Part shown: positions 5,740-38,298 of the stretch, in pieces | Numbering within the stretch: the stretch's first letter is position 1 | Layout: each line of letters starts with the position of its first letter | Origin: a virus | DNA: 38,344 nucleotides | Reading direction: 5' to 3' (one strand) | IMG/VR virus record: IMGVR_UViG_3300047586_000254 | Span: 1-38,344 of that record | The notes under the pieces: generated by a model | Seen by the model: the letters and a program-made list of their open reading frames with translations, nothing else | The model's database searches: none | Told to the model about the DNA's origin: nothing | Position numbers and translations under genes: made by a program

Positions 5740-6681
5740 CTAGAACGGCAGCTCGATGCTCTCGCAGATGACGGTCGCGTCGAACTCCTGGACGATCGGG
5801 TCGTCATCCAAAAAGACGGAGTAGTAGCGCATGTCGTTCATGATCGCGTCCTTGCCCTCGACCGTCTTGCGGATCCTGACGTCCCAGGTGGACACGATGA
5901 CGAAGTTCTGTGGGTCGCCCAGGATGATCGTGCCGTCGGGGATGCTCGGGCAGTAGACGATGTCCAAGCCCAGGGGCTTGTTCGCCACGTCGGTGCCGAG
6001 CAGGGCCAGGTCGCCGGCGCCGGTTGCGCGGCTGGAGACCATCTCCACCCAGGCGATCCGGGTCGCGGCGTTCATCATCCACTTGACGTTGCCGGTCCTG
6101 AAGAACTTGGGCGGCATGGCCTTATACATCCCGAAGAGGTGGTCCTTCGAGAAGGTCCCGCCGTTGATCCCGGACGCCGTCACGATGTGGCCGCTGTTCC
6201 GGACCTGCTTCAGCCACCCGTCGTTCAGGGTGAGGAAGTCGTAGTCCGGGTCGGTGTCGTCGGCGAAGGCGGTGTCGCTGTTCCAGTGCAGGTCCTCGAG
6301 ATCGAGGCCGAGCTGGGTGGTCATCATGCCCATGATCTTGTCTTCGAGGGCCTCGCCCTCGATGTTGTCGTGGAACATGTCCTCGCTGCACTCCCAGGGG
6401 AGGCAGAGGCGCGCCACGGAGTAGGGCACGTGCGCGAAGGTGTTGGCGGCCCGGTAGGTGTCCGGTCCGGTGCCCTCGTGCTTGCCGCGCACCAGGCGCT
6501 TGCCGATGTAGATCTTGTCGATCTCACCGGTCTTGGCCGACATGCGCAGCTTGCGGCACTGCTGGCTGAAGGGCGCGATGTCGAAGATCATGACGTAGAA
6601 CTGCTTGACCTGCTCCGGGAGCATGAGCCCGTAGGCCATGTCGTTGGACGTCATCTTCACTACTGCTTCTCGGGGATCCAT
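5740..6681 (-). CDS. major capsid protein
   Basis: A 313-residue protein with the layout of HK97-fold capsid proteins of PBSX/SPP1-like phages. The N-terminal helix (LPEQVKQFYVMIFDIAPFSQQ) precedes a segment resembling an E-loop with basic residues (IYIGKRLVRGKHEGTG). An axial-domain pattern follows (PYSVARLCLPWECSEDMFHDN, KFFRTGNVKWMMNAATRIAW, LLGTDVANKPLGLDIVYCP). The C-terminus has beta-rich sequence ending VICESIELPF. It lies between the scaffold-like and decoration genes and is bracketed by hairpins, as expected for the most expressed structural gene. Confidence 0.85.
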   Translation of the reverse strand: MDPREAVVKMTSNDMAYGLMLPEQVKQFYVMIFDIAPFSQQCRKLRMSAKTGEIDKIYIGKRLVRGKHEGTGPDTYRAANTFAHVPYSVARLCLPWECSEDMFHDNIEGEALEDKIMGMMTTQLGLDLEDLHWNSDTAFADDTDPDYDFLTLNDGWLKQVRNSGHIVTASGINGGTFSKDHLFGMYKAMPPKFFRTGNVKWMMNAATRIAWVEMVSSRATGAGDLALLGTDVANKPLGLDIVYCPSIPDGTIILGDPQNFVIVSTWDVRIRKTVEGKDAIMNDMRYYSVFLDDDPIVQEFDATVICESIELPF

Positions 6682-12104: not shown

Positions 12105-14117
12105 TCACTCCTCCTCGGTCGTCTCGCGGACGCCGGTTATCAGCCCCGCCGCGTTGGTGATGAAGTCCTTCTTGGTGATCGTCTTCTTGGGCTTGCCGTT
12201 CTTGGGCGCCTCGAGCACGATGGCGCCCTTCTCAATCTGCACGATCGGTGGGCCCTGGCTGGCGATGGCCTCAGCCAGCTCGTGCACGCCGTCGTCCCGG
12301 ATCAGGTTGTGGCCCTGGGGGAAGACCTCCTCGACCTGCTCGATGACGAAGCCCAGGTCGCGGGCCATCTCTTGCAGCCGGCGAAACTCGGACCAGCTCT
12401 TGGTGACCGCCGCGTTGCCGGGCGGAGGCGCGATCGCTCCTGGCGCCGGCGCAGGCGGCTTGCCACCTTGGGTGGCCACGCTGTTCATGGCCGCCTGCAG
12501 GTCGTTCATCGGGACCACGGTGCCAGTGCCCGAGACGTCGCCGGGGAAGGCTCCGACGTTGGAGCCGCGGGTGATCTCGAACGGTCTGCGGCCCCACTCT
12601 TCCAGCTCGGGGTCGATGGTCTCGCCGGTGTCGGGGTCGATGCCGGCCTTGCCGTAGTCGTTGGCGTCGCGGACCTCATTGACCGTCAGCGCCTGCTGGT
12701 AGTAGCTGCGGGTCCGGGCGATCTGTTCCTCGTCAGAGAGGGCCATTTCATTGAACTTGAACTCGATCGGCAGCTCGTCGCCGAAAGTGTCCTCCAGAAG
12801 CCATTGCAGCCGCGTCTCGTAGCGCTGCTGGTCCGGCTTGATGACCTGCTCCTTGAACGTCAGATCCTGGTCCTTGGAGTTGGCCAGGTTGGCGTTCTCC
12901 ACGATCGTCACCTTCGAGGGGCTCACGCGGTGGGCCATGATGACCTGGTCGCGACACCACTTGCGGTACTCGATGAAGGAGGCGTCCTCCTGGCCGGAGG
13001 CGCCGACGGTCAGCTTCTCGATGCTGATGCTCACGTTGGACCCGGCCTCGGTCTCGAGAAGCATGGTCTTGTGAGCCTCGCCTCTCAGGCCCTCGCGCAT
13101 GTAGTTGACGACGTAGTCGCGGGTGTCCGGATCCAAGCGCCCGCCGTTCACGCAGATGGCCAGCCGGGGGACCGCGTTGTTCAGGAAGAACTGCTGCTGG
13201 TAGGCCTGGGCCGCCTCGTCGCCCAGCATGTCGCCCAGGGCGGGCAGGTGGTCCGGGTGGCCGTAGAACGGGTTGGTCGGGGTGACCTCGAAGAACATCA
13301 TGATCTCGTTGGTGCCTTGGAAGCGCTCCGGGTTGGCCGTGTCCTCAGCCGCGCGCCCGTAGTCGCGGAAGTGCCGGTACTCGCCCATCCACTTCTGGAC
13401 CCAGCCGTCCCGGTCCTTGCGCCGGCGCAGGGTGTAGGCGTGCATATGGAAGAAGCCGTCCGGCTCGCCCTTGCCGTTGCGGGTGATCTCAAAGCCGCCC
13501 CAACCGACCGACTCCTCGTCCTTACGGATGGCGTTCAGCAGCTCGTCGATGGACTTGCCGTCGCGTCGGGCGCAGCCCTCCAGCCACTTCTTGACGCCGG
13601 CCTGCAGCTCCTTCTGGTCGGTGTCCTCGAAGCCCTCCTTCAGGTCGAGGCGCCAGCCCAGCCCCACGCAGTTGGCGGTCTTGGCGTCCACGCAGGCCTT
13701 GTGGGCGACGTTGCGATCGTAGAGCTGCACCATGGCCAGGGGATCCACCAGGGGCGGAGCGCACTTGACCTCGTCGTAGGCCCACTTGCCCAGGTCCAGG
13801 CGCTCAGAGGTGCCGGCGCCGTCGAGCTTCTCGCGGGCGGGGGCCTCGATGATCGAGGCGAAGGCCGCCGGCGTCTGCTTGTTGGGAGGGGTCTTGTCCC
13901 GGGTGTCGATCGTCGCCGAATGATCCACGCGCGCCAGCGCCCGGGAAGCCGCCTGGCGGGCCGCGTCGCCCTCCGGGCCCTGCAGCAAGGAGGCCGAGTC
14001 GACGCCGGGCGCGCTGGAGTACTGCTGCAGCACGTTGCCCGTGGGGTCGATCGCGGAGAGCGGGTTGGGGATGTCGCCGGGCTTACCGCCCTTGTCCCTG
14101 CCAGGTACTCCGGCCAT
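12105..14117 (-). CDS. portal protein, PBSX-family-like
   Basis: A 670-residue protein between terminase and the minor head gene. Typical portal features are the N-terminal Pro/Ala-rich region, then KWAYDEVKCAPPLVDPLAMV and NVAHKACVDAKTANCVGLGW. The body contains GEYRHFRDYGR, EIMMFFEVTPTNPFYGHPDH and QQFFLNNAVPRLAICVNGG. The conserved end of the portal stem/crown region is visible as YRKWCRDQVIMAHRVSPSKV and FKEQVIKPDQQRYETRLQWL. The 'TPTNPFYGHPDHLPAL' pattern is typical of PBSX-type portals. The C-terminal 120 residues are proline-rich with a predicted coiled helix. Its ATG overlaps the terminase stop by one base. Confidence 0.88.
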   Translation of the reverse strand: MAGVPGRDKGGKPGDIPNPLSAIDPTGNVLQQYSSAPGVDSASLLQGPEGDAARQAASRALARVDHSATIDTRDKTPPNKQTPAAFASIIEAPAREKLDGAGTSERLDLGKWAYDEVKCAPPLVDPLAMVQLYDRNVAHKACVDAKTANCVGLGWRLDLKEGFEDTDQKELQAGVKKWLEGCARRDGKSIDELLNAIRKDEESVGWGGFEITRNGKGEPDGFFHMHAYTLRRRKDRDGWVQKWMGEYRHFRDYGRAAEDTANPERFQGTNEIMMFFEVTPTNPFYGHPDHLPALGDMLGDEAAQAYQQQFFLNNAVPRLAICVNGGRLDPDTRDYVVNYMREGLRGEAHKTMLLETEAGSNVSISIEKLTVGASGQEDASFIEYRKWCRDQVIMAHRVSPSKVTIVENANLANSKDQDLTFKEQVIKPDQQRYETRLQWLLEDTFGDELPIEFKFNEMALSDEEQIARTRSYYQQALTVNEVRDANDYGKAGIDPDTGETIDPELEEWGRRPFEITRGSNVGAFPGDVSGTGTVVPMNDLQAAMNSVATQGGKPPAPAPGAIAPPPGNAAVTKSWSEFRRLQEMARDLGFVIEQVEEVFPQGHNLIRDDGVHELAEAIASQGPPIVQIEKGAIVLEAPKNGKPKKTITKKDFITNAAGLITGVRETTEEE

Positions 14118-15730
14118 CAGCCAATCACTGCTCCTCTCACCAGGCCGAGGGTCGAGCGCCTGAGCGCGATCTCGGCGTAGCTGTCAGCGTGTGCGAAGTG
14201 ATCGGGACCCCGCTGAACCCACACGGCCTTCTTCTGGCCGGTCTGGGGGTCCTCCTCGATCTTGCGCAGGACGTTGGTCATCTGCCGCACGTACTCGGTC
14301 AGCTCGTCTTCCACCCGGGGGATGCGGCGCTTGCGGAGCTTGTAGACGTCCCGCCAGGCGTCCAGGGCCTCGGTCCGGTTAACCGTCACGATGCGGGTGT
14401 TCTCGGCGTCAAAGCCCCAGCTCGCCGTGCCCTTCTGCTGGCCCCCGTAGTAGGCGCACCAGACCCGCCCGGGGAAGCGCTTGTTGAAGGCCCGGGCCGC
14501 ATGGGTGTTGGGGAGAGCGTCGATGACGCAGAAGCGGACGTCGTAGGTCTCCATGAGCGCATCCAGGTGACTGAACAGGGCGTCGGTCTGGGGCTCGTGC
14601 TGCACGCGGATGGTGAGCACGACATCGCCGTGCGGCTCCTTGATGACGATGTGGAGGCCGTTGCCCTGGTCCACGCCCATCACGCAGCCCTTGCCCCGGG
14701 GAGGCATGCCCCACTTGCCGCCGCAGGCCAAGAGATCGGCTTCGGAGAGGCCGCCCTCGGCGCCCAGGTAGGGCAGGCCCAGCTCGGAGTTGAAGAACTC
14801 GCCGGGGAACTTCGTCTCCCGCCACAGCTTGAGGAGCGCGGCCGGCTTCGTGTAGCAGCCATCCTCGGTCTCCTGCTGGCTCACGATCGTCGAGATGAAC
14901 TTGGTGATGTGGTAGCCGCGCCGGGCCCGGCTCGGGTAGAGGGCCACCCAGTAGCCCTTCGCGGGATCCAGGGCGTGGCCGCAGCGCAGGCACACCAGGG
15001 TCTCGCGCCCGGGTCCGCCCTTGACGAAGCAGATGTCCGTCCGGGGGTCGTCCGGGGCGCCGTGGTGATCGAGGAACTCGTCCTCGAGGCAGTGCCATCC
15101 CGAGCAGCCCGGGCATTTGAGCAGCCAGTGCCGTTGATCGGTGGCGATGAAGGCCGCGTCGATGCCGTACTCCGGCAGGCTGGGCGTGCTCACGTCCAGC
15201 TCCCAGCCCCAGGCCGAGTGCCCCAGGCGCTTGCGGGCCAACTCCACGTTCTCCGGCTTCATCTCGTCCAGCTCGTCAAAGACCAGGAAGTCGGCCGGCA
15301 CGGACTTCATCCGCGTCCGGCTGTTGGTGCCCCGGAAGTAGATGGCGCCGTTGGGCCCGATCTGCTTGTAGCCGGCCGTGTCGGTGTCACGGACCAGGGA
15401 GCGGAAGTACTCACTGTCCCGGACGGCCGGGCCGAAGCGGTCCCGGCTGAACTCGCCGACGTCGTTGTCGGTCGGGAAGTAGTAGATGACGCGGCCGCCA
15501 TGGACGACGCAGAAGTGCAAGGCCCGACTGATGGCGTACTCGCTCGCGCCCATCTGGGCCGCCTTGCGGATGATCACGAAGGGGGCGACGTCCCGGTAGA
15601 TGCCCTTCAGATACTCGTGGCCCTCGTAGGAGAACGGGTCGCTCCCGATCTCCCGGTTGACGAGGCACCACTTACTCAGGGACGGCGAAGCCGCGAGGCA
15701 TGATGTCACCTGGCTGTGGACCTGGCGCAT
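14117..15730 (-). CDS. terminase large subunit, GpA-like
   Basis: About 537 residues if started at the ATG at 15,730; longer upstream starts and a GTG at 15,712 are possible, and no candidate has a convincing ribosome site. It powers DNA packaging. The ATPase P-loop-like segment is RKAAQMGASE, as in GpA-family terminases. The Walker B-like segment is FLVFDELDEM. A zinc-binding pair CPGC / CLRCG follows. The nuclease half shows GVDQGNGLHI, VIDALPNTHAARAF and DHFAHADSYAEIAL. It overlaps the small terminase gene by about 59 bases with this start. Confidence 0.85.
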   Translation of the reverse strand: MRQVHSQVTSCLAASPSLSKWCLVNREIGSDPFSYEGHEYLKGIYRDVAPFVIIRKAAQMGASEYAISRALHFCVVHGGRVIYYFPTDNDVGEFSRDRFGPAVRDSEYFRSLVRDTDTAGYKQIGPNGAIYFRGTNSRTRMKSVPADFLVFDELDEMKPENVELARKRLGHSAWGWELDVSTPSLPEYGIDAAFIATDQRHWLLKCPGCSGWHCLEDEFLDHHGAPDDPRTDICFVKGGPGRETLVCLRCGHALDPAKGYWVALYPSRARRGYHITKFISTIVSQQETEDGCYTKPAALLKLWRETKFPGEFFNSELGLPYLGAEGGLSEADLLACGGKWGMPPRGKGCVMGVDQGNGLHIVIKEPHGDVVLTIRVQHEPQTDALFSHLDALMETYDVRFCVIDALPNTHAARAFNKRFPGRVWCAYYGGQQKGTASWGFDAENTRIVTVNRTEALDAWRDVYKLRKRRIPRVEDELTEYVRQMTNVLRKIEEDPQTGQKKAVWVQRGPDHFAHADSYAEIALRRSTLGLVRGAVIG

Positions 15731-16118
15731 CTGCGTCGGGGAGAGACTCCTCAGTGAGTCGAAAGACAATTCCACTAACGGTGGCGTCTGGTTTGACGAC
15801 AAGCTCGGCTCCATCCTTCCCGGTGTGCTCGACCCGCTCGATGTAGCCACGGTCCTTCGCCTGGGTCTTCAGGTAGAAGATGATGGCCGTGATATCACCG
15901 GACAGGATCCGGGAGTAAAGCGATGACTCGGCGTTGTCCTTCATGGTCTCGCGGGCGTCTTCCAGCGCCTCTCTCAGGCTGGGGCTTCGGTCGCAGCGCC
16001 GCTTAATGGTGCGCCGGCTGAGTCGGTAGCGCCGGGCGATCGCCGCCACGTTGCCGTGCAGATCATCGATCGCAGCGAGCAACTCCTCGTGCGAAGGCCC
16101 TTTTTTTATAGCGGGCAT
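15672..16118 (-). CDS. terminase small subunit
   Basis: A 148-residue protein with a helix-turn-helix near the N-terminus (GNVAAIARRYRLSRRTIKRR), followed by a helical oligomerisation region (LREALEDARETMKDNAESSL) and the segment ITAIIFYLKTQAKDRGYIER, typical of small terminases. It recognises the packaging site and lies immediately before the large subunit. Confidence 0.82.
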   Translation of the reverse strand: MPAIKKGPSHEELLAAIDDLHGNVAAIARRYRLSRRTIKRRCDRSPSLREALEDARETMKDNAESSLYSRILSGDITAIIFYLKTQAKDRGYIERVEHTGKDGAELVVKPDATVSGIVFRLTEESLPDADAPGPQPGDIMPRGFAVPE

Positions 16119-19224: not shown

Positions 19225-22125
19225 TCATACTTGCTTTATGGTCGGGCTCCCGTCGAGGGCGCGAACGAGTTCAGCAATCTTCTCCGCCAGCTCGGCCTTG
19301 ACGATAATCTTCAACTGCACTTGAGCAAAGCTGGCCCCATTCTCGTCTACGCAGGTTGCAAGTTGCTGAAGCAGAGAGTAGAGGGCGTCCCGTCTAGCTT
19401 CTTCAGACAGGCTGATGCCCATAAACGAGAAGAAGACTTCGGCCTCGGCTGACGTTGAGACTCCCCTGCCCCCGACAACCGGCTCAGGTCCGGGACCATC
19501 ACCCTCTCTCCCTCCATTCTCGTCTGTCCCCGAGCCGGATCCTTCGGCACTTTTGACTAGCCGCAGTCCTGGTTGCCCCACCGCGATCTCGCTGGCCTGG
19601 GTAACAGCACGATCCGCGCCATCGGCACCGGTCAGACGGAGGCCGCCAGACTTGACCGCCTCAAAGATTGCCTCTTGCAGGTCAACGTCCCCTTGGGGCA
19701 ACAGTGACATCCGCGGCGCGCTCCAGAACGAGTCCCGAATCTCGTCCAAGGGTTTCTCGTAGTCGTCAAGGCGAAGGTTGTGGACTAGCACCTTGGCGGT
19801 GAAGCCGCCAATTTCAAATGCCTTGTCAGCCTCGACTAGCGCCTTCCAGACCACGGTCCCGTCGAGCGAACTCTGGTTCTCTTGCTCCAGAGTTATCGTT
19901 CTCTCGACCCGCGGCTCTCCCTGAGCCTCCTGACCCATTCCGAGGTAGATAACGTGCTGGAAGGCCTGCTTGACTGCCCGTTCCAGCTCGCGCCGGGCAT
20001 CTGTCATCTCGTCCTTGGCCTTCTCAGCTAGCTCGGGATCTCCCTGCACTTCCCCCATCCCTGAGACCCGCCGCCACGCCAGATAGTTCACCGCGGCCTT
20101 GCGCGCGTTCTGCCGACGTTGCGTATTCACGACCGCGAAGACCGCCGAGGATGCCCACTTCACCGTAAGCTTGTCGGGGCCGAGTCCCAGCGCTGCACGA
20201 ATGGCCGCTCGCGTGTCTTGGTCGACGCCGTTTAAAAGCGAGAACTGACGAGGGTCGAGCACAACGAGGCGAGTCGTGCGGGCGTCGTCGATACCAGAGT
20301 CTGCAAGCACCTCCCGAGGCGAGCGTGTTAGGTCGGCGTTGACAAACAGTTTCGTCTTGAACGGGCCCGTCGACACAAGCCTCTCTGCTGTTCCTGCAAC
20401 CTCGCTGTCTCGGTCCTCATCGTTGATCCCGCTAGTCGCGGCGCGTACCAGCATGTTTAGTGTCTGCCGCGTCGACATGAAGAGACGAGGCGATTGCCCT
20501 CCTTTTCCTGGGTTCACCTCGGCGGAAGCCAACCCGCCGCCTTCCGCGTCTTTGATCTCGCTGATAATCCCGTCCGCGTCCGCGTAGGTGAACGAGCTAT
20601 CAGGCGCGAAAGCCGCGGCTTTCAGTTCCTGCTCGGTGGCTCCTTGACGGCCTCCGCCGCGCGGCCCCACAATGGAACACAAGAACAAACACGTGGCCGC
20701 GCGCTCCGTAGCACGTGGATTGGCGAGCGCGAACAGCGTGTTACAGTGTGCCTTATCCAGCAGCCGAGCGGAACCAGACTCATCATCCGTACCGACGATG
20801 TCAGTCGACGCTAGCTGGCGGTAGTTCGCCTGAGCCCGGACGTCTGCAATGAGACCTGACCCTATCACGGCCTCTCGGACGTTGGGCTCTGAGAGAACGA
20901 TGTCGCCAGGGCCGATCAGCAGGGGTGTCCAACCACCCTTTTGCGCACGCTCGCTCAACGCGTAAACCGTCGCGGCAAAGATGCGCATTGTGGACCTCAC
21001 CCGCTGGAATCCGGCTAGCTTCGACCACTCCTGTTCCGCGTAGTGAATCAGCTGTGGGTGGAAGGGATAGCAGCGGTCCACACTCGCCGCCCACTCGCGA
21101 GCCCACGGCATTCCCAGCGCATCGAATACCTTGGATTTCCACGGCTCAACCATGCGTTGCTCAAACAAACGCGAGGTAGCCGCCATTACTTCATTCGGGG
21201 CGCGATTCTCGAAAAGACGCCGACGTAGGATCGCGGAAAAGTCCGTGTTGTCATTGATTGTCGCGGGCTTTCCGTTGCGATTTAGTAGCTGGTCGAGTTC
21301 ACCCCGACGTGATAGTCCTTCGTCATCGAGATCCATGCTGTCCTTCTCGGACGCGATCATGACGACGACCATGGCAACGTGCGGCACGTCGTTAACAACG
21401 TCGAGAAGGGCTCGAAGGAATGCCATGTCCCTAACCGCGAGATCGTGAAGGGCCGTGTCGGAGAGCTGGCGGACGTAGTCCATGATCTCGTCGACGAGGA
21501 TGAGGACCGGTCGGCCGACCGCGATAAGTGCGTCCGCAAGCTTCGATTTGTCGGCGTAGTACGGTTGGTAGCGTTTGAAGAGCGCGACATCACCGCCAAA
21601 GAGACGCCACAGAAATCGCTCTTGCAGTGACACGGCCGGACCATCATGCTCGGGGACGCCTTTGCCCGCTGTCATGTTGTCACAAGCCAGGATGACAACC
21701 TGGGGCTGTCCTAGTTCGCCAGCAATCGCACCCCCGACCATCTTCTCGGCCTGTCCGAATGCAGCTTTGCCAATGTCGGTCGCCAAGAGGGCTTGGGGCG
21801 CGGCAGCTGCATGGTAGAGCCCGATGAGACCGTGGGACTTACCTCCCCCCATCGCCTGATCGAGTCGCCAAAGAGCGGGCGCGGCAGTGTAGGCCGCCCC
21901 TCCACCCAGCCGTACAATCACCTTCGCCATGAGGTCGATGAATTGGGGCGACGGGTGCGTGATTTCGCCATAGTATCCAGGGATCGCGTAGGGCGGTCGT
22001 TCAGCAGCAGTCCCGTAGGCGGCCTGAAAGAGGGACATCTGGACGTCGTCGATTGAGCCCGCGGACCGCACCACCTCTGCCCGGATCTTAAGGGTGTCCC
22101 ACCACGGTGTGACTGTCTGTCCCAT
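19225..22125 (-). CDS. DUF499-type P-loop ATPase of the defence-like cassette
   Basis: A 966-residue protein resembling the DUF499 family, known from defence islands beside DUF1156 methylases. Walker A is AMGGGKSH (residues about 91-98) and Walker B is ILVDE (about 209-213), followed by YVRQLSDTALHDLAVRDMAF. The segment HVAMVVVMIASEKDS looks like a sensor strand. A Gly/Glu-rich linker (GSGTDENGGREGDG) near residue 870 separates a C-terminal helical domain ending IAELVRALDG. It lies 16 bases after the methylase stop in the same direction. It may move on DNA or couple ATP hydrolysis to sensing; that is inference. The coding sequence is less GC-biased than surrounding phage genes. Confidence 0.82.
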   Translation of the reverse strand: MGQTVTPWWDTLKIRAEVVRSAGSIDDVQMSLFQAAYGTAAERPPYAIPGYYGEITHPSPQFIDLMAKVIVRLGGGAAYTAAPALWRLDQAMGGGKSHGLIGLYHAAAAPQALLATDIGKAAFGQAEKMVGGAIAGELGQPQVVILACDNMTAGKGVPEHDGPAVSLQERFLWRLFGGDVALFKRYQPYYADKSKLADALIAVGRPVLILVDEIMDYVRQLSDTALHDLAVRDMAFLRALLDVVNDVPHVAMVVVMIASEKDSMDLDDEGLSRRGELDQLLNRNGKPATINDNTDFSAILRRRLFENRAPNEVMAATSRLFEQRMVEPWKSKVFDALGMPWAREWAASVDRCYPFHPQLIHYAEQEWSKLAGFQRVRSTMRIFAATVYALSERAQKGGWTPLLIGPGDIVLSEPNVREAVIGSGLIADVRAQANYRQLASTDIVGTDDESGSARLLDKAHCNTLFALANPRATERAATCLFLCSIVGPRGGGRQGATEQELKAAAFAPDSSFTYADADGIISEIKDAEGGGLASAEVNPGKGGQSPRLFMSTRQTLNMLVRAATSGINDEDRDSEVAGTAERLVSTGPFKTKLFVNADLTRSPREVLADSGIDDARTTRLVVLDPRQFSLLNGVDQDTRAAIRAALGLGPDKLTVKWASSAVFAVVNTQRRQNARKAAVNYLAWRRVSGMGEVQGDPELAEKAKDEMTDARRELERAVKQAFQHVIYLGMGQEAQGEPRVERTITLEQENQSSLDGTVVWKALVEADKAFEIGGFTAKVLVHNLRLDDYEKPLDEIRDSFWSAPRMSLLPQGDVDLQEAIFEAVKSGGLRLTGADGADRAVTQASEIAVGQPGLRLVKSAEGSGSGTDENGGREGDGPGPEPVVGGRGVSTSAEAEVFFSFMGISLSEEARRDALYSLLQQLATCVDENGASFAQVQLKIIVKAELAEKIAELVRALDGSPTIKQV

Positions 22126-22141
22126 GACCCATCCTTCCCGC

Positions 22142-24850
22142 TCAATCGAAGAGTGATCCCTGCCCGGTTCTCATCTTCTTGTTGGGCGTCTTCCGTTTTG
22201 ACACAGCAAGTGCTTCGTCCGCCGATGCCCCGACGCCTCGTCGATTCCTCAGGAGACTGTTCCACGCAACTGCGTCAGGATCAGCTTCCGGAAGTTTTAT
22301 GGACAGGTACCGCATGGCTGCCCACAAGTAAGCGTCATCAGAATTCCGGTTCGACAAAGCTAATACGTCGCCTGCGGCATCCAGTCCTGCCGGCCACGCT
22401 TGAGCCATGGCCATCGCGACATCAATAGCTGCTGAGTTGTCGTTAATATCGCCTTTGAACTCGCGCGAGTAGGCCAAGCGAGTGCCCTTGTCTGCGTCGG
22501 CGAGGATTCCCTTGAGCCTCTCGAGGGGAAGATCGGCCGCCAGAGATTCCCAACGAGCTTCGGACTTAGGGGCGACGGATCGTCCGTACAGACGCGCCCA
22601 AGAAAGAGCGAAGCGGGTGCGGGAATCAAAGGTTTCGAGCGGAAGGTTGTCGATCTGTATGGCAGCCGCCTCGTCCACCGCACGACGGGCAACAAGAAGA
22701 TATCGCTCTGGGTCCACCGTTTCCCCCCGGTTGTCCAACACGGTGCTATATCGGCCCACGACCTCCATCGCTGGACCCGCGGAAGCCATGCGCTGATCAG
22801 TTGGGGCGAGCCCTACAGCTTCCCACGCTGGGACCCGGGCTTTGACCTCATTCCTCACCTCAGCTTCCACCAGGCTTGCTCTGCCTTCCGGACGGCAGGC
22901 GGGCGCTGGTCGGCACGACATCGTGAGGGTCGTGACGATGTTGGAGAAGCCTGCCTTACCGCCCTTCTCCGTTTTGGCCGGCCAGGACCCCGTTAGAACC
23001 AAGCCGGCGTTGGTAATTGCGCCGAGGAGCCGGTGCCAGACCTCGGGTTCCCCATGGCCGAATACAATCGTCACAACGCCGTCGGGTCGTACTACCCGCC
23101 GGCTTTCGGCGAACGCCCGCGCTATGAGACGATCGTACCTTTGCCGAGTGCGGAAATCGTCATTGCTGGTTCCGCCCTTCTTCACGATTATCTCGTCCGT
23201 CTTCTCCTGGACCCCGTGCGGGTCTGCGGTGAAGGCGAATTCGGGCATGACCGACGCCAGCGAGCGCTTCAGCCAGACGTAGAAGAGATCGGACGCATCC
23301 GTATAGTCAATCATCGCGTCGTAGGGGGGGTCCGTGACTACTGCCGCCACCGACTGATCGGGTAAGGGCACAGCAAGCGCAGTACCACGCGTGATTCTCG
23401 CTGGCACGCCCGGGCGCCTGTTCACTTGGCGTGACAACGCGGCAAGCGTGCCTTGTGCAATCGACTCCCATGTCCCGGGGCCGTCGCCCAAACCAGCTTC
23501 GAAGTAGTCGTACGAGAACGCCAGGCTCGATTCTGTCTGGAAGATATCGGAGACGCCCTGTCGGCTGATTGCCAAAACGCAGCCCCTAGTGGCTCGGCGA
23601 AGCTTGCGCGCCATGACGGCGCTCGCGTAGCCGCATAGCGCGCTCGCATAGTCTTCGGAGACGCCGGACCGAATGAGTTCTGCCCCAAGCTCCTTGATAG
23701 TCCGGGCTAGTCGAACAAAACCGAGAGTCTGCCTGGCGTTGCACATATCGCCGTAGGTGCGAGCGCCGTAGACGGTTGCCTGGACGGTCCACGTGTTGCC
23801 CTTGGGGATTTCCTCGTGGGGAACAGCCGGAAGACCCTCTTCGAACGGAGGCTCATTGGCAAGCGCGAGCTCGGCGTCCAACGCAGCTCTCGCCTCTTCT
23901 GGAGTGACCTCCCGGTACGTCTTGCCGCATCTGTCATCCAGGTCCGCAGCCAGCAGCAGCGCATCCTGACCCCTTCGCTCACTGGCTAGTCGCGTATGTA
24001 CGTCTTTTGGATGTACATGGCTGCAGAAGGGGCACACGGCGACCTTTCCCGAAGCGGAGTATCTGCTTTTTCCCGCTAGCACCCTGGTCGGCACGCCCGT
24101 AGGTTCCCCTTCTTGCACTACCACCTGCCACTCGCCGCTCTGCCTATCCGCGACAATTCCAAAGCTCTGGCCGGAGTCTCCTTTCCCGGGATTGGGAGGG
24201 CGCAACGCAAGCGAGCCCACCAAAGGAAATCTGCGACCGCACTCCTGGCAGGGCAGCGTCACCGCCCACAGGTAGCCCCACGGCTGCTTTCCGCAGACTT
24301 TTGGGTAGAAACCCTGCATTGCAGCCGAAAACCGTGCCGACACCTCATTGAGAACGTTGGTGACGTCAGCGAGAAGACGTGGCTGTAGGCTGTCGGGGGA
24401 ACGAAGCGGCAAGGCAGGTTCATTGGACCAGTCCCTCAGGGGGTAGTCTGCGAGAAGCCGTCCGGCCAAGGTCGCCACAATCGAGTAGTCGATGCCATAC
24501 GCTTCGGTCCCGTAGCGAGCAGCCTCGAGCGGGAGCATCGCTCTACCTGAGAACGGATCCAAGAGCGAAACCGTCCCCTGATACCAACGGCCAAGCTCAG
24601 TCTGTACCTCCTTCTGGGCTGAGTCGTAGTCCTTCAGCGCACGGCGTACTAGGTCCTGAAGGCGTCGCTGCTCCGATACATCGTCGGGCCACGGTAGGAG
24701 GCTTGTGATAACAGCCGCGCGCGCTTGCGCCAATGGCCGCTTAGCAAACCAGGGGAACAGCATCGCCTCGCTGTTCCCACTGCCCCACCCGGAATAGGAT
24801 GCCTCACTAACCTCGGCGCACGGAAACCAGCGCTCAATCATCCGGGTCAT
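22142..24850 (-). CDS. DUF1156-type DNA methyltransferase of the defence-like cassette
   Basis: A 902-residue protein. The N-terminus (SGNSEAMLFPWFAKRPLAQA, then RAAVITSLL) matches the DUF1156 pattern 'WWARRPLAAARA'. The AdoMet motif is LLDPFSGRAMLPLEAARYG (about residues 96-114), and the catalytic motif DPPY is at 507-510, followed by DAMIDYTDASDLFYVWLKRS. Cysteine pairs (CQECG near 190 and CPFCSHVH near 260) may bind zinc. The order is AdoMet motif first, then DPPY, with a long insertion between. The ATG overlaps the helicase stop by four bases. It probably marks self DNA by adenine or cytosine methylation. Confidence 0.88.
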   Translation of the reverse strand: MTRMIERWFPCAEVSEASYSGWGSGNSEAMLFPWFAKRPLAQARAAVITSLLPWPDDVSEQRRLQDLVRRALKDYDSAQKEVQTELGRWYQGTVSLLDPFSGRAMLPLEAARYGTEAYGIDYSIVATLAGRLLADYPLRDWSNEPALPLRSPDSLQPRLLADVTNVLNEVSARFSAAMQGFYPKVCGKQPWGYLWAVTLPCQECGRRFPLVGSLALRPPNPGKGDSGQSFGIVADRQSGEWQVVVQEGEPTGVPTRVLAGKSRYSASGKVAVCPFCSHVHPKDVHTRLASERRGQDALLLAADLDDRCGKTYREVTPEEARAALDAELALANEPPFEEGLPAVPHEEIPKGNTWTVQATVYGARTYGDMCNARQTLGFVRLARTIKELGAELIRSGVSEDYASALCGYASAVMARKLRRATRGCVLAISRQGVSDIFQTESSLAFSYDYFEAGLGDGPGTWESIAQGTLAALSRQVNRRPGVPARITRGTALAVPLPDQSVAAVVTDPPYDAMIDYTDASDLFYVWLKRSLASVMPEFAFTADPHGVQEKTDEIIVKKGGTSNDDFRTRQRYDRLIARAFAESRRVVRPDGVVTIVFGHGEPEVWHRLLGAITNAGLVLTGSWPAKTEKGGKAGFSNIVTTLTMSCRPAPACRPEGRASLVEAEVRNEVKARVPAWEAVGLAPTDQRMASAGPAMEVVGRYSTVLDNRGETVDPERYLLVARRAVDEAAAIQIDNLPLETFDSRTRFALSWARLYGRSVAPKSEARWESLAADLPLERLKGILADADKGTRLAYSREFKGDINDNSAAIDVAMAMAQAWPAGLDAAGDVLALSNRNSDDAYLWAAMRYLSIKLPEADPDAVAWNSLLRNRRGVGASADEALAVSKRKTPNKKMRTGQGSLFD

Positions 24851-27800
24851 GCTGAGTCCACCCGATCACGTGCGTCGAGAAGAGCCGAACCGGGAATAGT
24901 GAAAATCGCCTGCTGTTGAATGAGACCGGCGAAGGTTGAAACAGGATCACGGTAAACCCCGAACACGAGGCCTTGCCCCTCCCCACACCGGTCAATCACG
25001 TATAGCCAGTAGTCGCCGCGCTGCTGTGTGGCAATAAGTATTTCGTTCCCGGTCAGGCGAACCCCTGTCGAACTCGCCGATCCCCATAGGCCCTTTACTT
25101 CGATGCACCGCTGCATCTGCCCCCGCGTTGCATAGAGGTCATAGCCCCGACCTTCCGTGTGCACATCGGCGACCGCCCATCCGTCAGCTGCAAGCAAGTC
25201 GCGGACACGCTTGGTGGCAATTCGCTCGCTATCCGCCTCTGTGGGCTCGGCCGGTATCCCTTGCGCTCTGACCAGTACGTGAGCAGTCAGTCGGAGACCG
25301 CTAATAACTACGTCGGTAAGAACGCGCAGCTCGGCGAGCCTCTCGTCCACCATCCGCTGCACCCGGCTCCTGGTTTCCACGCGCCTCTCGCGCTCCGGCA
25401 CGTCTTGACTGATCCTACCGGGAAGTGCCCGCAGTTCCTTCTCGGCTTTCTGGAGCCAGGCAATCTGGGCAGCCTTCCGCTTCTCCTGATCTTCTAGAAG
25501 CAGCTGTTGGGCACGCGCCTGGGCATCGTATAGCCGAGCGGGATGCATCGGTCCCTCCGAATTCCCGCCAGACTCTGTCAGATTCGCCAACACCTCCCAC
25601 CGGACAGGCCTAGCTCCTGCCTCATCAACCCGGATGAGAGCGGTCCAGGGGGAGTGCTTCTTGCCGCCTCCCTCTGTGACTTTGGCTTCAAACGCGAACA
25701 GACCATAGTCCTGTATGGATGTTGGGTCAGCGACAGTTCCACCACGAAAGACGTCAGGAGCAAGCCGCGACTGCGCCGCCAACACGAGACTATTGAACGC
25801 CGGCTCTCCGGGGCCAATGGTGGGGACACCGGTCAAGACGGCTCCAGCAGCCAAGGCCACGGTCACCGCATTCCCGCTGGTAGCGACGACCGCTCGCCGT
25901 CTCCCTCCAAGCTCGGCGCTCAAGAGCGAGCCGTCGATAGTACTAAGCTGGTAGATCCCTTCACCGCTCGCTGTCTGGGCCAATCTAAACACATCGGCTC
26001 GGTCCAACCTCTGGAGATAGGCCTCGACGATTGCGGGGTTGATCCGCTCCAATACGTCATCCCGCAGCTGCCGTATGGCAGTAGCGACGTCAACTGCACT
26101 GGCCAGGACCGCTTCCTCTTTTCGGGCCTGCTCGGCCGCTGCTACGAGTTTGGAAGCCGTGATCATCTTTGCAGCCGACAGGGCAGCGGTCCTTTTCGCT
26201 TCGTCCTGGCCGTAGGCGTCGGCAAGAAGGGTAGCGAGCCGCTCGTCGCCGAGCCCGGTCAATTCGGCGACGAGCGAGAGGGAGTCGAACATCTTGCCTT
26301 CGAGCTGGTTGGCGGCGTCGACGAAGTTCCGAAGCAATACCGCAAGAACGTCGCCCTCTCGAGTATCTTGGGCGATAAGGTTGAACAGCTCCACGTCGCG
26401 CGTCTGCCCAACACGGTGTATGCGACCCATGCGCTGCTCAAGGCGTACAAGTGACCAGGGGATATCGTAGTTGACGAGTACTCGCGCCGCCTGCAGGTCG
26501 ATGCCCTCGTTGCCTGCGTCCGTGGACACAAAGATTTGAAAATCGTGAGACATGAATGCGGCGCGGACCTCGTCTCGAACCTGATGGGTATCGCGGCCCG
26601 AATAGCGTCTCGCGCTAAAGCCCTCGTGGACAAGGCGTTTGACAAGCCAGTCCGCGGTATCCGCATATTCTGTAAACAAGACCGCTTGCTCGGAATTTCC
26701 CGGCTTGATTCCTTGTTCTCCCAGACATTCCACGACCAGTGGTTTCCACTTCGAGACCGGGTGATCACCGCTCGTCACGAGAGGCTCCAATCGCCCAAGC
26801 AAGTCTTCTATCGCTCGTCTTTCGCGTGCGGCAGACTTGGAGCCTTCGGTGACTACGCGAGCCTCTTCTTGGGCTGACGGATCCTCGTCGTTGGGATCGG
26901 CGGCGAGCGTCGCTTCTGCTGCCGAGACGGAGCCCATGCTCGCGGAACGGCGCCTTAGTGTCTCCGCGAGGGCATACAGGGAGGAGGCAGCTCGCTTGCC
27001 GTAGACCATGCGAGCGAGTGGGGCTGCCGAGGCAGGGAAGAACTCGTCGACCATCCCCAGCGCTTCAGTGTAGAACGCGTACTCCTGCACGCTGAGCGGT
27101 ATGGTCTTGTTGGTAGCTCGTCGTCCCTTGAATAGCGGCGTCTTGCCGTCATAGTCGACGAGGTCCTCTTTCATCCGGCGTAGGAAATGGATGGGGCCGG
27201 GTTTTATCGGTCGTAGTTCCGGCTTAGGGTCGTTTCCCGGGTCTGGATAGACCGCTGGGTCGACCAAGTGCAAGAGATGCCGGAAGAGCCATTCCGATCC
27301 ACGATGCGGAGTCGCAGTCATGAGCAGTGCTAGGCGGCTGTTCTTGGCCAACAGCGAACCAACCCGGTAGAGAGTCTCAGCGGTTGGGGTCAGACGATGG
27401 GCTTCATCAAAGACGACTATGTCCCAGGCCCCACGGTCAGGACGTATCGCGTCTTGGACGGACGCGTTGTTAGCCGCCAACTCGAGCGAAATCACCCACA
27501 TATCGTGGGGGGCTACCAGACCGTGCTGCTGGACTGTCTCGTTAGTTATGCGCCTCAGCTCTCCGCCGAAGAAGCGCTCGAAGTCGGCCTTCCACTTTGA
27601 GACAAGACCGGCGGGGACCACTATGAGGGCACGATTCACGAGACCGAGCCTCTGCATCTCCCGCAAATACATTCCTGCCATGATGGTCTTGCCTGTGCCC
27701 GGCTCATCGGCGAGAAGAAACCGAAGCCGGGGCTGGGGGAGCATCGCCCCGTACACAGCGTTCGACTGGTGGGCGTAGGGCCGCAGGGGAGTCGAAGCAA

Positions 27801-28071
27801 GCAACGTTGCGGCTCCGTCGGAAGCAGCGGAGGACATCCACTGCGTCCACAAACCAGCTAGGACGCGACGCGAATCGCCACCCCCATCCGGTTCAAGGAT
27901 TTGGATGTTCTCAGCCTCAGCTTCGGTCTGATCTACCCTTTCGAGGCCTCCGGTGTCGGTGCGAACGTATAACCTCCAGCCGGCGGCTGATTGGATTGCG
28001 TCCTCAATAGTCACCCACTCAGGCAGATGTTGCCCTGGAATGTGGATGCGCTGGCCGACTTCTAGTTGCAT
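24847..28071 (-). CDS. SNF2-type helicase with C-terminal DUF3883-like domain
   Basis: A 1,074-residue protein, the first gene of the cassette. SF2 motifs are visible: DEPGTGKT (122-129), FDEAHRL (221-227), MTATPHRGSE, FTEYADTADWLV, FVSTDAGNEGIDLQ and QRMGRIHRVGQ. The last 120 residues contain GYDLYATRGQMQRCIEVKG, a D...E-K pattern of DUF3883/PD-(D/E)XK-like domains, so it may cleave or bind DNA ends. SNF2 proteins of this build (DrmD) serve in class 1 DISARM. No DrmA, DrmB or DrmC is present here. The start has a weak AAGGCG ribosome site; 78 bases separate it from the previous gene, and I find no strong promoter there. Confidence 0.87.
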   Translation of the reverse strand: MQLEVGQRIHIPGQHLPEWVTIEDAIQSAAGWRLYVRTDTGGLERVDQTEAEAENIQILEPDGGGDSRRVLAGLWTQWMSSAASDGAATLLASTPLRPYAHQSNAVYGAMLPQPRLRFLLADEPGTGKTIMAGMYLREMQRLGLVNRALIVVPAGLVSKWKADFERFFGGELRRITNETVQQHGLVAPHDMWVISLELAANNASVQDAIRPDRGAWDIVVFDEAHRLTPTAETLYRVGSLLAKNSRLALLMTATPHRGSEWLFRHLLHLVDPAVYPDPGNDPKPELRPIKPGPIHFLRRMKEDLVDYDGKTPLFKGRRATNKTIPLSVQEYAFYTEALGMVDEFFPASAAPLARMVYGKRAASSLYALAETLRRRSASMGSVSAAEATLAADPNDEDPSAQEEARVVTEGSKSAARERRAIEDLLGRLEPLVTSGDHPVSKWKPLVVECLGEQGIKPGNSEQAVLFTEYADTADWLVKRLVHEGFSARRYSGRDTHQVRDEVRAAFMSHDFQIFVSTDAGNEGIDLQAARVLVNYDIPWSLVRLEQRMGRIHRVGQTRDVELFNLIAQDTREGDVLAVLLRNFVDAANQLEGKMFDSLSLVAELTGLGDERLATLLADAYGQDEAKRTAALSAAKMITASKLVAAAEQARKEEAVLASAVDVATAIRQLRDDVLERINPAIVEAYLQRLDRADVFRLAQTASGEGIYQLSTIDGSLLSAELGGRRRAVVATSGNAVTVALAAGAVLTGVPTIGPGEPAFNSLVLAAQSRLAPDVFRGGTVADPTSIQDYGLFAFEAKVTEGGGKKHSPWTALIRVDEAGARPVRWEVLANLTESGGNSEGPMHPARLYDAQARAQQLLLEDQEKRKAAQIAWLQKAEKELRALPGRISQDVPERERRVETRSRVQRMVDERLAELRVLTDVVISGLRLTAHVLVRAQGIPAEPTEADSERIATKRVRDLLAADGWAVADVHTEGRGYDLYATRGQMQRCIEVKGLWGSASSTGVRLTGNEILIATQQRGDYWLYVIDRCGEGQGLVFGVYRDPVSTFAGLIQQQAIFTIPGSALLDARDRVDSA

Positions 28072-34242: not shown

Positions 34243-34602
34243 ATGAGCGAAAAACGGACGGACAAGCCCCTGAACCAAGCCCTTCGCGAGCTGATGGACA
34301 AGGTCGGCTGGACTGAGGAAGAACTGGCCAGCCGAACCTCGGTTACGCAAGGCACGATCAACAAGTATCTTCGCAGCCGGCGGGGACGGGAGATGAACTC
34401 CCGGTCGGTGGAGACCGTCCGGCAGATCGCCGCCGCCCTATCGGTCACCCCTGAGTACTTCCTCGAGTACCGCCAGTGGAAGGCCAAGCAGCTGGTCGCA
34501 GAGGCGATGGCCAAGGGGCTCATCGACCTCGAGGACATCGAGTTGATTCTGGCTGGGAAGAGATACCGAGAGAAGCGGGGTTCAAAGGTGCCTGGGCTGT
34601 GA
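34243..34602 (+). CDS. phage repressor-like XRE regulator
   Basis: A 119-residue protein. Helix-turn-helix residues about 16-60: LRELMDKVGWTEEELASRTS, then VTQGTINKYLRSRRG and VRQIAAALSVTPEYFLEYR. It lacks the LexA-like peptidase domain of long CI repressors, so induction must use another route. No ribosome site precedes ATG. A TAGATT sequence 8 bases upstream of ATG could be a -10, which would make the message leaderless; an in-frame TTG at 34,234 is the alternative start. Its TGA overlaps the GTG of the next gene. Confidence 0.75.
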   Translation: MSEKRTDKPLNQALRELMDKVGWTEEELASRTSVTQGTINKYLRSRRGREMNSRSVETVRQIAAALSVTPEYFLEYRQWKAKQLVAEAMAKGLIDLEDIELILAGKRYREKRGSKVPGL

Positions 34603-35426
34603 GATCCAGCGGCGGCTGGGCAAAGGACAAACTCGATATTCTCACGTGCTACTCGAATGCGTTCGCGCTGGCCACGAAGAAGGCCGATGGGGGGGCATTC
34701 ATTGATGGATATGCCGGACCCGGGCTGAACTTTATCCGTGACACCAGCGAGGTCAGGCCGGGTTCACCCATCATTGCTTTGCAGGCGAGGTTTGGCAAGG
34801 TATTCCTGATCGAGCGAAACCCGAAGGCGGCTCGGCGACTCAGAGACCATCTAGCCCAGACCGCGGCGTCCGAGGTCGAGGTCGTTGAGGGTGACGTTAA
34901 TGTCGAGGTTTTCAACTGCCTTGCCCAGATTGAGTCCTGGCGGCCGGTGCTCGTATTCCTTGACCCGACAAGAGCGGACCTCGAATGGTCGACGGTCGAA
35001 CGCATTGCCTCGCACGATGAGACTCGACGGACTACCAAGCCCGAACTCCTGATCAATTTCCCAAGCGACTTCGACCTCCTTCGAAAATTCCGCATCGGCA
35101 GGGGCCCGGCCGCACCTGATCGTATCAGTGCGTTCTTCGGAACTGATGAGTGGCAGGATCTGGAGAGCGTGAAGCTTCGGGGCATGGGTGCTCGCGTCAC
35201 CGCTCAGACGAGAAAGGAGCTCCTAGAACTGTACGCGAAACGCCTACGTGAGGTGCTAGGCTATCGTCATGGACCGCTTGTTCGACCGATTCGTGCTCGC
35301 AGTTCTCGGGGACGCACCTGCTATTTCCTCGTCTTTGTGAGCGATCATCCACTGGGCGAGAAGCTCATGAGGCATTGTTTCGGCAAGACGAGCGACGGTC
35401 AGACACAGCTGGCACTGGACTGTTAG
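34599..35426 (+). CDS. TcmP-like three-Cys-motif partner protein
   Basis: A 275-residue protein starting at the GTG that overlaps the repressor stop (GTGA), which rules out the longer frame inside the repressor. The pattern KDKLDILTCYSNAFALA, then FIDGYAGPGLN, GSPIIAL, FLIERNPKAARRL and FLDPTRADLEWSTVERIA, with LLINFPSDFDLLRK, is that of TcmP proteins. They have a methyltransferase-like Rossmann fold and are found beside three-Cys-motif (DUF5131/Gp37) proteins, as here. The function is unknown; it could modify a small molecule, tRNA or protein. The coupling implies synthesis in the lysogen. Confidence 0.82.
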   Translation: MRSSGGWAKDKLDILTCYSNAFALATKKADGGAFIDGYAGPGLNFIRDTSEVRPGSPIIALQARFGKVFLIERNPKAARRLRDHLAQTAASEVEVVEGDVNVEVFNCLAQIESWRPVLVFLDPTRADLEWSTVERIASHDETRRTTKPELLINFPSDFDLLRKFRIGRGPAAPDRISAFFGTDEWQDLESVKLRGMGARVTAQTRKELLELYAKRLREVLGYRHGPLVRPIRARSSRGRTCYFLVFVSDHPLGEKLMRHCFGKTSDGQTQLALDC

Positions 35427-35500
35427 TTGACGAGCCTTCCCATCCCCTCAGGGTGATACCTTATGAGTGCTGATGCCCGAATCGGAGGAAGGGAGGGGGG

Positions 35501-36232
35501 ATGGCGAAGTCAACAATCGAATGGACCGAAGCAACGTGGAACCCGGTAACGGGTTGCACCAAGATCAGCGCCGGGTGCCGGTACTGCTACGCCGAGCGCA
35601 TGGCTATCCGCCTTCAGGCAATGGGACAGCCCGCCTACACTTCGGGATTTGGCCTCGCCCTCCATCCCGAGAAGGTGGACCAGCCGCTCGAGTGGCGGAA
35701 ACCGAGCACCATCTTCGTCAACTCCATGAGCGACCTATTCCACGAAGATATCCCGGCCGAGTTCATTAGGGACGTCTTCGCTACTATGCGGGAAGCTTCC
35801 TGGCATCGCTTCCAGGTCCTCACGAAACGGGCCGAGCGGCTCGAAGAGCTGAACGAGTGCCTCGAATGGCCTGAGAATGTGTGGATGGGGGTGACCGTCG
35901 AGCGGCAGGACTACACCTCACGCATCGATCGTCTCCGAAGGACTGATGCACGGGTCAAGTTCCTCTCCTGCGAGCCCCTGCTGGGGCCACTCGCCCGCCT
36001 GAACCTCGAGGGGATCAGCTGGGTCATCGTCGGTGGGGAATCTGGGCCTTGCGCTCGTCCGGTCGATCCAGCATGGGTTAGAGATGTCCGGGATCAGTGC
36101 ACAGAGGCCAGCGTGCCATTCTTCTTCAAGCAATGGGGAGGTCGCAACAAGAAGAAGGCCGGCCGGGACCTTGATGGCCAGCTATGGAGCCAGGTGCCCG
36201 CTCCGAGCCTTTCACCGCTCCCCGCTTTCTGA
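35501..36232 (+). CDS. DUF5131 / phage Gp37-Gp68 family three-Cys-motif protein
   Basis: A 243-residue protein preceded by GGAGGGG. The N-terminus STIEWTEATWNPVTGCTKIS, followed by AGCRYCYAERMA, carries three cysteines in C-x5-C-x2-C, radical SAM-like. Further hallmarks are IFVNSMSDLFHEDIP, FQVLTKRAERL, WMGVTVERQDY and FLSCEPLLGP. The ending WVIVGGESGPCARPVDPAWV, then FFFKQWGGRNKK, is the classic family signature. It pairs with TcmP. The enzyme reaction is not known. It overlaps a convergent small gene by 21 bases. Confidence 0.88.
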   Translation: MAKSTIEWTEATWNPVTGCTKISAGCRYCYAERMAIRLQAMGQPAYTSGFGLALHPEKVDQPLEWRKPSTIFVNSMSDLFHEDIPAEFIRDVFATMREASWHRFQVLTKRAERLEELNECLEWPENVWMGVTVERQDYTSRIDRLRRTDARVKFLSCEPLLGPLARLNLEGISWVIVGGESGPCARPVDPAWVRDVRDQCTEASVPFFFKQWGGRNKKKAGRDLDGQLWSQVPAPSLSPLPAF

Positions 36233-36606: not shown

Positions 36607-38034
36607 ATGCGCACCTTCGCCTACATCCGTGTCTCCAAAGAGCGCGACGATATGATCTCGCCGGAGATCCAGCGAGACGAGATCACCGCCTACTGCAACA
36701 AAAAGGGTTGGGAGGTCTCCGAGTGGTTCCAGGATCTCGACCTATCGGGCCGCTCCTGGGACCGCAAGAAGCGCCGCGGCCTGGACGACCTCATGGCCCG
36801 AGCCCTCGCCGGCGAGTGCGACGCGGTCGTCTTCTATCGCATCGATCGCCTCAGCCGCGAGGAGGAAGACTTTCACGCGGTCCTGGCAGCGCTGCAGCGC
36901 GCCGGCGTCGTGTGCGACTCGCCCGGCAACCCGAACGACGGGTCCCCGGAGGCCTCGCTGATATGGTCGATTTCGGCCGCGCTGGCGAAGTACGAGTCGG
37001 TACGTCTGGGGGCCAGGATACGCGACGCCCACCGGAAGCTTGCCCGGATGGGACGCTGGTCGGGCGGGCCGGTTCCTTGGGGATGGAAGCGGGTTCGGGA
37101 CGAGAACGGGGTACGGTTAGTCGGCGTTCCGGAACTGACAGAGATCCGTCTGTGGATGCATGAAAAGTATCAGCAGGGGTGGGCGCTTAGGCGGATTGCT
37201 CGAGCACTGAACGAGAAGGGAGTGCCGACCAGGTCAGGCGGGAGCTGGTTCGAAAAGACAGTGCTAGTCATACTCACCACCCCCTTGCAGGTCGGCGCCC
37301 GAGTGGCTGACGGCGAACTGGTCTTCGGCGGGAACGTTGAGCCCCTCATCCCTTACGAGGTCTTCCGCAAGACCACGCTCGCCGTGGAAGCTCGCAAGGG
37401 AGGGCCACAGCGTGGGCGCGAGCCCCGAGTGCCCTTGACCGGACGTCACGTACGCTGCGGGACCTGCGGAGGGCCCATGTACTGTCGCTACGCCCACAGC
37501 GTCAACGACCTGTACTACCAGTGCTATCACAGGAGCCATGGCCTCTGTGAGCGCGGTGTCGCGGTGAAAGCCTCGTGGCTCGTCCCCGAGGTCGAGAGGA
37601 AGCTGCTTGCCCGGGTGGGGGAGACGAGGGCCCGGGAACGGAGTCTCAGGATCGTCGACCCGGTCGAACCGTTGGCGAATGAGGTGCAACGAATCGAGGC
37701 AACCCTTGGGCAGCTGACCTCACTGTTCGTCGACGGAGAACTCCTCGAGGGGGAATACCGTGAGGCACGCAAGCTGCAGTTGAAGCACCTGACAGACGTG
37801 CAGAAACGCCTCGACAACGCTGTGAGGCGCGTGGAGGTCATCGTGCGGGCCGATTATGTCGAAACCGTTCTAGCCGGCCTTTCCGACATCGGACCCGAGG
37901 GCTGGGCAGCCCTGAGCGTGCCGGCGAAGCGGGACATCTTCGATGTCGTACTCGACCGAGTGATCGTCTACCCGAAAGACCAACCCAGGAACCGCTGGGC
38001 TCCTCCCCATAAGATCAAGATTCTCTGGCGCTAA
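36607..38034 (+). CDS. large serine integrase
   Basis: A 475-residue protein started at ATG 36,607; a 51-codon upstream extension lacks a ribosome site and is atypical. The resolvase domain begins AYIRVSKERDD with catalytic Ser10, and the arginine-rich FYRIDRLSREEEDF follows. The recombinase domain contains GWALRRIARALNEKGVPTRS. The zinc ribbon is RCGTCGGPMYC with QCYHRSHGLCERG. A coiled-coil motif follows (LDNAVRRVE region). TACACT at 36,592 could be a -10 placing the start close to ATG. It catalyses attP x attB integration and, with a directionality factor, excision. Confidence 0.93.
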   Translation: MRTFAYIRVSKERDDMISPEIQRDEITAYCNKKGWEVSEWFQDLDLSGRSWDRKKRRGLDDLMARALAGECDAVVFYRIDRLSREEEDFHAVLAALQRAGVVCDSPGNPNDGSPEASLIWSISAALAKYESVRLGARIRDAHRKLARMGRWSGGPVPWGWKRVRDENGVRLVGVPELTEIRLWMHEKYQQGWALRRIARALNEKGVPTRSGGSWFEKTVLVILTTPLQVGARVADGELVFGGNVEPLIPYEVFRKTTLAVEARKGGPQRGREPRVPLTGRHVRCGTCGGPMYCRYAHSVNDLYYQCYHRSHGLCERGVAVKASWLVPEVERKLLARVGETRARERSLRIVDPVEPLANEVQRIEATLGQLTSLFVDGELLEGEYREARKLQLKHLTDVQKRLDNAVRRVEVIVRADYVETVLAGLSDIGPEGWAALSVPAKRDIFDVVLDRVIVYPKDQPRNRWAPPHKIKILWR

Positions 38035-38061
38035 CCAGCGACGTAGCTCCCGCTCTTTGTC

Positions 38062-38298
38062 ATGTCGTGCGAGTTCGCCCCGCGTGGGTACCTCTCTGTA
38101 GGCAGAAGTGCGAACTCTGCGGAGGCGGACTTCTTCCGTATCAAAGCCTGGAACTCGCAGGCCGAAGCCGCCGGCGACCATCTGGGCAAAGGACGGCGTA
38201 TTGCCGTGGAAGGTTCACTGCGCCAGGACGTTTACGAGAAGGACGGCGAAGAGCGCAAGGCTGTCTCCGTGGTGGCCAAGCGGCTCGAGTACCTGTAG
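38062..38298 (+). pseudogene. ssb: C-terminal fragment of host single-stranded DNA-binding protein
   Basis: From about 38,089 the frame reads YLSVGRSANSAEADFFRIKA, then LGKGRRIAVEGSLRQDVYEK and VVAKRLEYL, which is the second half of a bacterial SSB OB-fold. The expected N-terminal 30 or so residues are missing; an in-frame ATG at 38,062 has no ribosome site and precedes phage-side sequence. There is no acidic SSB tail, so this may be a secondary SSB. The break next to the integrase suggests attB is inside ssb. Confidence 0.75.
38071..38117. other. probable attachment site (attR) at prophage-host junction
   Basis: GAGTTCGC (38,071-38,078) and GCGAACTC (38,110-38,117) are inverted repeats around a centre at about 38,094, within the segment TACCTCTCTGTA. 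The 47-base span and place between the integrase and ssb fragment match serine integrase att sites. The exact crossover cannot be fixed without the left end. Confidence 0.5.

Follow-up and report, generated by a model that had tools for sequence, protein, structure and literature searches.

The IMG/VR virus record IMGVR_UViG_3300047586_000254, analysed here over its whole 38,344 bases (hereafter, the window), almost certainly displays the attR end of a temperate phage that was integrated by a serine integrase, at a GA dinucleotide, into ssb2, a second SSB gene of its actinobacterial host. The site, its register, the linkage between integrase and site, the empty and occupied sites and the presence of two ssb genes were established on relatives together with the attR of the window. 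In the proposed mechanism, the window would represent most of a tailed-phage genome residing in the chromosome of an actinobacterium from an order that includes the MAG RBG_16_64_13. The integrase would recombine a near-palindromic attP of ~50 bp (GTAGGCAGAA-N14-GA-N14-TTCTGCCTAC) with an attB inside ssb2, with the crossover at the GA that opens the second Glu codon of EEADFF, a point in the loop preceding strand 3 of the OB fold. The resulting attR would consist of a phage arm up to 38121 and host ssb2 from 38122, with the N-terminal part of ssb2, its start codon and its ribosome-binding site left at attL, outside the record. The features concerned are the following:

1–36600, truncated prophage body (PHROGs and collinearity with the G010 prophage)
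5740–6681 (−), capsid (PHROGs)
12105–14117 (−), portal (PHROGs)
14117–15850 (−), TerL (PHROGs)
36607–38034 (+), large serine integrase, 475 aa (Pfam: PF00239, PF07508, PF13408)
38071–38117, 47-base dyad with 8-bp arms (38071–38078/38110–38117), a chance inverted repeat
38098–38107 (+), attP-derived arm GTAGGCAGAA, the phage half-site of attR (match to the G011 and G002 junctions)
38108–38121 (+), 14-bp phage-side spacer of attR (length constant at all junctions)
38122–38123 (+), putative crossover dinucleotide GA (attP symmetry centre in G011, G002 and G010; start of ssb2 homology)
38122–38298 (+), 3′ part of host ssb2 (EADFFRIKAW...KRLEYL, stop), N-terminal part missing (identity to intact ssb2; PF00436)

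Prophage and integrase

PHROGs searches recovered head and tail genes in the window, and the phage is collinear with a prophage in G010, a genome of the same order (64%, 61% and 58% identity for TerL, portal and capsid, respectively). The left edge of the window (base 1) falls within a phage gene, with an open gene start at 1–54 (−). Thus, the record was cut inside this gene, attL is absent and the other prophage end lies beyond the record.

Three further loci of the prophage body deserve mention. At 19225–28071 (−), a three-gene block of the prophage matches HmaC (ATPase), HmaB (methylase) and HmaA (helicase) and is a candidate anti-phage defence system of the Hma type. The gene pair that immediately precedes the integrase (34557–36232, +) matches the PADLOC candidates PDC-M41A and PDC-M41B and possibly represents further defence cargo at the prophage end. 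Finally, a 160-aa phage protein (30559–31041, −) weakly matches a phage SSB family and terminates in DSGYDDIPF, like the acidic tip of SSBs; from these sequence features, it is probably a phage-encoded SSB.

The original prediction of a serine integrase followed by a C-terminal SSB fragment was borne out. The integrase contains the Resolvase N-terminal catalytic, Recombinase and zinc ribbon domains, all above the Pfam cut-offs, as well as a YIRVS motif with Ser10, and its stop codon precedes the crossover core by 88 bp. The SSB fragment corresponds to positions 41–103 of the 104 of PF00436, at 38107–38292 (E 7e-14), with the stop at 38298. Large serine integrases as a class recombine attP with attB without host factors, and excise with the help of an RDF; the integrase of the window is predicted to be an active recombinase.

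The integrases located at split ssb2 genes in G010, G011, G002, G016 and G017 are 46–59% identical to that of the window. Among the 18 genomes of the order, integrases more than 50% identical over the full length are encoded by G002, G010, G011 and G016, all at split ssb2 genes; G017 carries a decayed integrase, 46% identical overall, which also adjoins a split ssb2. The nearest phage records searched are ~27% identical, and the viral contigs searched, with both the integrase and an integrase alignment, yielded no close relative, only one 31% fragment. When 299 genomes sampled from the class were examined, no further homolog was found at E below 1e-40, so that integrase and target gene were encountered together only within the order. 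The distance from integrase to junction is 49–88 bp in the window, G011 and G016, ~0.7 kb in G010 and ~1.7 kb in G002. Separately, G018 encodes a 47% identical integrase (L118, 16869–18311, −) away from ssb2, which is intact and 13 kb off, suggesting that the choice of target is not fixed across the wider integrase family.

The ssb2 gene and its canonical counterpart

A scan of genome contigs with the fragment retrieved intact ssb2 genes in actinobacterial MAGs, at eleven loci (L003–L006, L008–L011, L013, L015 and L016), each coding for 95 aa and spanning PF00436 positions 1–103. The fragment is 74–88% identical to intact ssb2 at the nucleotide level and 95–98% identical to the closest at the amino acid level. 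It has no acidic tail, as originally remarked, and neither do the intact copies, which end in RLEYL (RLQFL in G013) rather than in the canonical acidic tip (DDxPF). This lack, together with the absence of any ssb2 match in at least one member of the order (G014), might suggest that the integration is real but that ssb2 is a gene of a mobile element and not a host paralog. We consider this improbable: nearly all genomes of the order carry ssb2, and it lies directly upstream of, and in the same direction as, a gene for a ~960-aa LuxR/MalT-like regulator (L003, L004, L005, L008, L014, L016 and L012), with conserved host genes beyond the latter in the intact loci checked.

The earlier guess that the interrupted gene could be a dispensable second ssb, which called for another full-length ssb in the host, gained support as well. 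A canonical ssb of ~150 aa is present in 13 of the 13 host genomes searched, with a DDIPF end in all 11 copies read through, and ssb2 is only about 31–38% identical to it. The best attB match within the canonical SSB gene is 23–26/50, versus 38–44 in the ssb2 loci. Collectively, these results support the view that the prophage breaks a non-essential second ssb and spares the essential one, as judged from relatives in the case of the window's own host.

Several ssb2 copies are damaged. In G017 (main contig of 4.6 Mb), ssb2 is a broken pseudogene, the 3′ half of which was not found in the genome; next to the decayed integrase, at ~10000–10400 of L119, a short insertion breaks the N-half some 24 codons in. 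The 3′ end of ssb2 is frameshifted in L017 and L018, which therefore represent damaged copies, not clean half-genes. In G012 (L018/L060), this frameshifted 3′ remnant starts at the same crossover point and adjoins host-like genes, and looks like the scar of a lost element.

Junction anatomy and occupied sites

The ssb2 gene is split at the same codon in G010, G011, G002, G016 and G017, and the missing N-halves were located in these genomes. As anticipated for the other prophage end, G010 has the N-half on the contig that also holds the C-half; in G011 and G002, it is found on partner contigs. L052 (G001; a weak SSB match on the minus strand) was left out of the counts of attL halves. All nine junction halves align on GA in a single register, the core GA occupying positions 1 and 2 of the second Glu codon in EEADFF, and share the layout GTAGGCAGAA, 14 bp, GA, host for attR and host, GA, 14 bp, TTCTGCCTAC for attL. 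The arm GTAGGCAGAA is 10/10 identical in the attR of G011 and G002 and is mirrored as its exact reverse complement in their attL; G010, G016 and G017 show up to three arm mismatches, and the decayed G017 has GG instead of GA. Over 24 nt, the phage half-site of the window is 15–18/24 identical to the other phage halves (chance P about 3e-4 at 15 or more).

The 24 bases before 38122 match intact ssb2 at 5–10 positions, versus 16 of 24 for the attR phage halves of G010, G011 and G002. Hence, the proposed insertion within a host ssb is upheld, with ssb2 homology from 38122 and a phage-type half-site before it, but the host-derived part begins at the core GA and not at 38035, right after the integrase. 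When attP was rebuilt from the halves in three relatives (the window holds one half only), its symmetry was 20/24 in G011, 17/24 in G002 and 15/24 in G010, and that of attB was 8/24, 5/24 and 8/24, respectively, i.e., not palindromic. The symmetry of these sequences points to GA as the likely crossover dinucleotide. An attP of ~50 bp with inverted arms around a 2-bp core and a less symmetric attB is the normal arrangement for large serine integrases. No intact attP of the GTAGGCAGAA-N14-GA-N14-TTCTGCCTAC pattern was detected in the viral contigs searched; the attR-like pattern occurred there in 11 stretches, by estimate no more than expected by chance.

The 47-base dyad between integrase and SSB fragment had also been put forward as an att candidate. 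The 8-bp repeat does exist; its att role does not hold, since an equal repeat turns up in 28% of 264-base stretches drawn at random from the window and in 21% of shuffles. The left arm of the repeat consists of ordinary phage sequence, and the right one falls in the spacer that separates the phage arm from the core, the real arm being GTAGGCAGAA at 38098–38107.

In G010, the two halves of ssb2 reside on one 180-kb contig, with the cores 59.06 kb apart, and are separated by a 59-kb prophage, the collinear relative of the window phage. In G011 and G002, attL and attR are on separate contigs, and G002 seems to be a mixed bin, given its several ssb2 copies. An empty site in a related genome, proposed as a check, was found among the eleven intact loci: G011 (occupied, two contigs) aligns with G013 (empty, L016) on both sides (79% over 3.7 kb upstream, 87% over 10 kb downstream), and the two aligned blocks are separated by ssb2 alone.

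These sites also bear on the idea that the SSB fragment represents a small, complete phage gene with its own start (ORF 38062–38298, 78 aa). There is indeed an in-frame ATG at 38062 and an open 78-aa frame. However, homology to host ssb2 begins only at 38122, the upstream 24 nt resemble attR phage halves, the residues before the core vary between elements, no ribosome-binding site is visible before 38062 and half an OB fold would be missing. The empty sites and the N-halves in other genomes largely refute this idea, which we regard as very unlikely. Equally hard to sustain is an assembly or binning chimera in place of integration: all genomes are MAGs or metagenomic contigs and some (G002) look mixed, but six separate assemblies agree in the nucleotide, in the integrase lineage and in having mirrored phage arms, and both ssb2 halves share a single contig in G010.

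Returning to integration at ssb2, the integrase is at the C-half end of the gene in the window, G011 and G002 and at the N-half end in G010, G016 and G017; related prophages are found in opposite orientations at the same ssb2 nucleotide (L053 and L012 of G010 versus the window, L014 and L017). In the integrase tree, G010 and G016 are joined with a support of 0.99 (G017 was left out), and a single switch of orientation is thus enough. Because attP is nearly palindromic, the flip would require no more than TC in place of GA relative to int.

Lysogenic state and known systems

The lysogen would have no intact ssb2 and would keep its canonical SSB. As the split deprives the C-half of its start codon and of the initial OB-fold strands, SSB2 should be inactive, and its function would presumably be lost in the lysogen. 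The LuxR/MalT-like gene downstream would be cut off from the ssb2 promoter and may lose its promoter, and excision would be expected to restore ssb2. The ComEC family is present in 15 of 18 genomes, too widespread to mark competence, and no com gene was recognised beside ssb2 at the loci checked.

Integration into second copies of housekeeping genes has parallels. Bxb1 reportedly integrates in groEL1, where attB lies, as in ssb2, in what is by name the second copy of a housekeeping gene, in that case a chaperone paralog and not an SSB. The same likeness and difference apply to bifidobacterial prophages in dnaJ2 (PMC6109161). Among the closest known cases is the Streptococcus mitis prophage phiB6, inserted in ssbB (PMC2828477; also PMC12637031). 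Like the window phage, phiB6 is temperate, disrupts the coding sequence of a second SSB gene (of the competence type in phiB6) and has its att core just downstream of int (36 bp, versus 88 bp in the window); unlike the window phage, it comes from a different phylum, with no shared phage genes shown, and has a 9-bp core. The target choice is also alike in that the second ssb is hit and the canonical one is untouched (for the host of the window, as its relatives suggest), although streptococcal ssbB is known to act in transformation and ssb2 is not so known. Pneumococcal PPH085 prophages (PMC8637289) likewise use a serine integrase at an ssb locus, but in Firmicutes, with the att site listed between ssb and the neighbouring SDR gene. 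According to a survey of large serine recombinases (PMC10083194), targets are enriched in DNA-competence genes and, as here, integrases of diverse kinds share a single site within a gene; its main text does not name an SSB among the targets. Both the insertion of phages into second SSB genes and the use of single conserved sites by serine integrases have precedents; relative to the databases and literature searched, what appears new is the integrase lineage with its attP and attB, the host order and the existence of two orientations.

By analogy, participation of ssb2 in natural transformation would be in line with both phiB6 in ssbB and the enrichment of competence genes among serine integrase targets, and lysogens might then lose competence. 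It is conceivable, if rather unlikely, that ssb2 is the transformation-type SSB of the order, targeted by a specialised integrase lineage, that the prophage reversibly silences DNA uptake or the ssb2–LuxR operon and that the attP core was flipped once, hence the opposite insertions at the same nucleotide.

Our results define, by sequence prediction, a serine integrase together with its attP and attB, all from an uncultured actinobacterial order, and add a second phylum to the short list of phages breaking a second SSB gene. Such a target agrees with the notion that integrases prefer dispensable paralogs and competence genes, and the opposite orientations of related phages at one nucleotide constitute a natural test of the polarity rule for the core dinucleotide.
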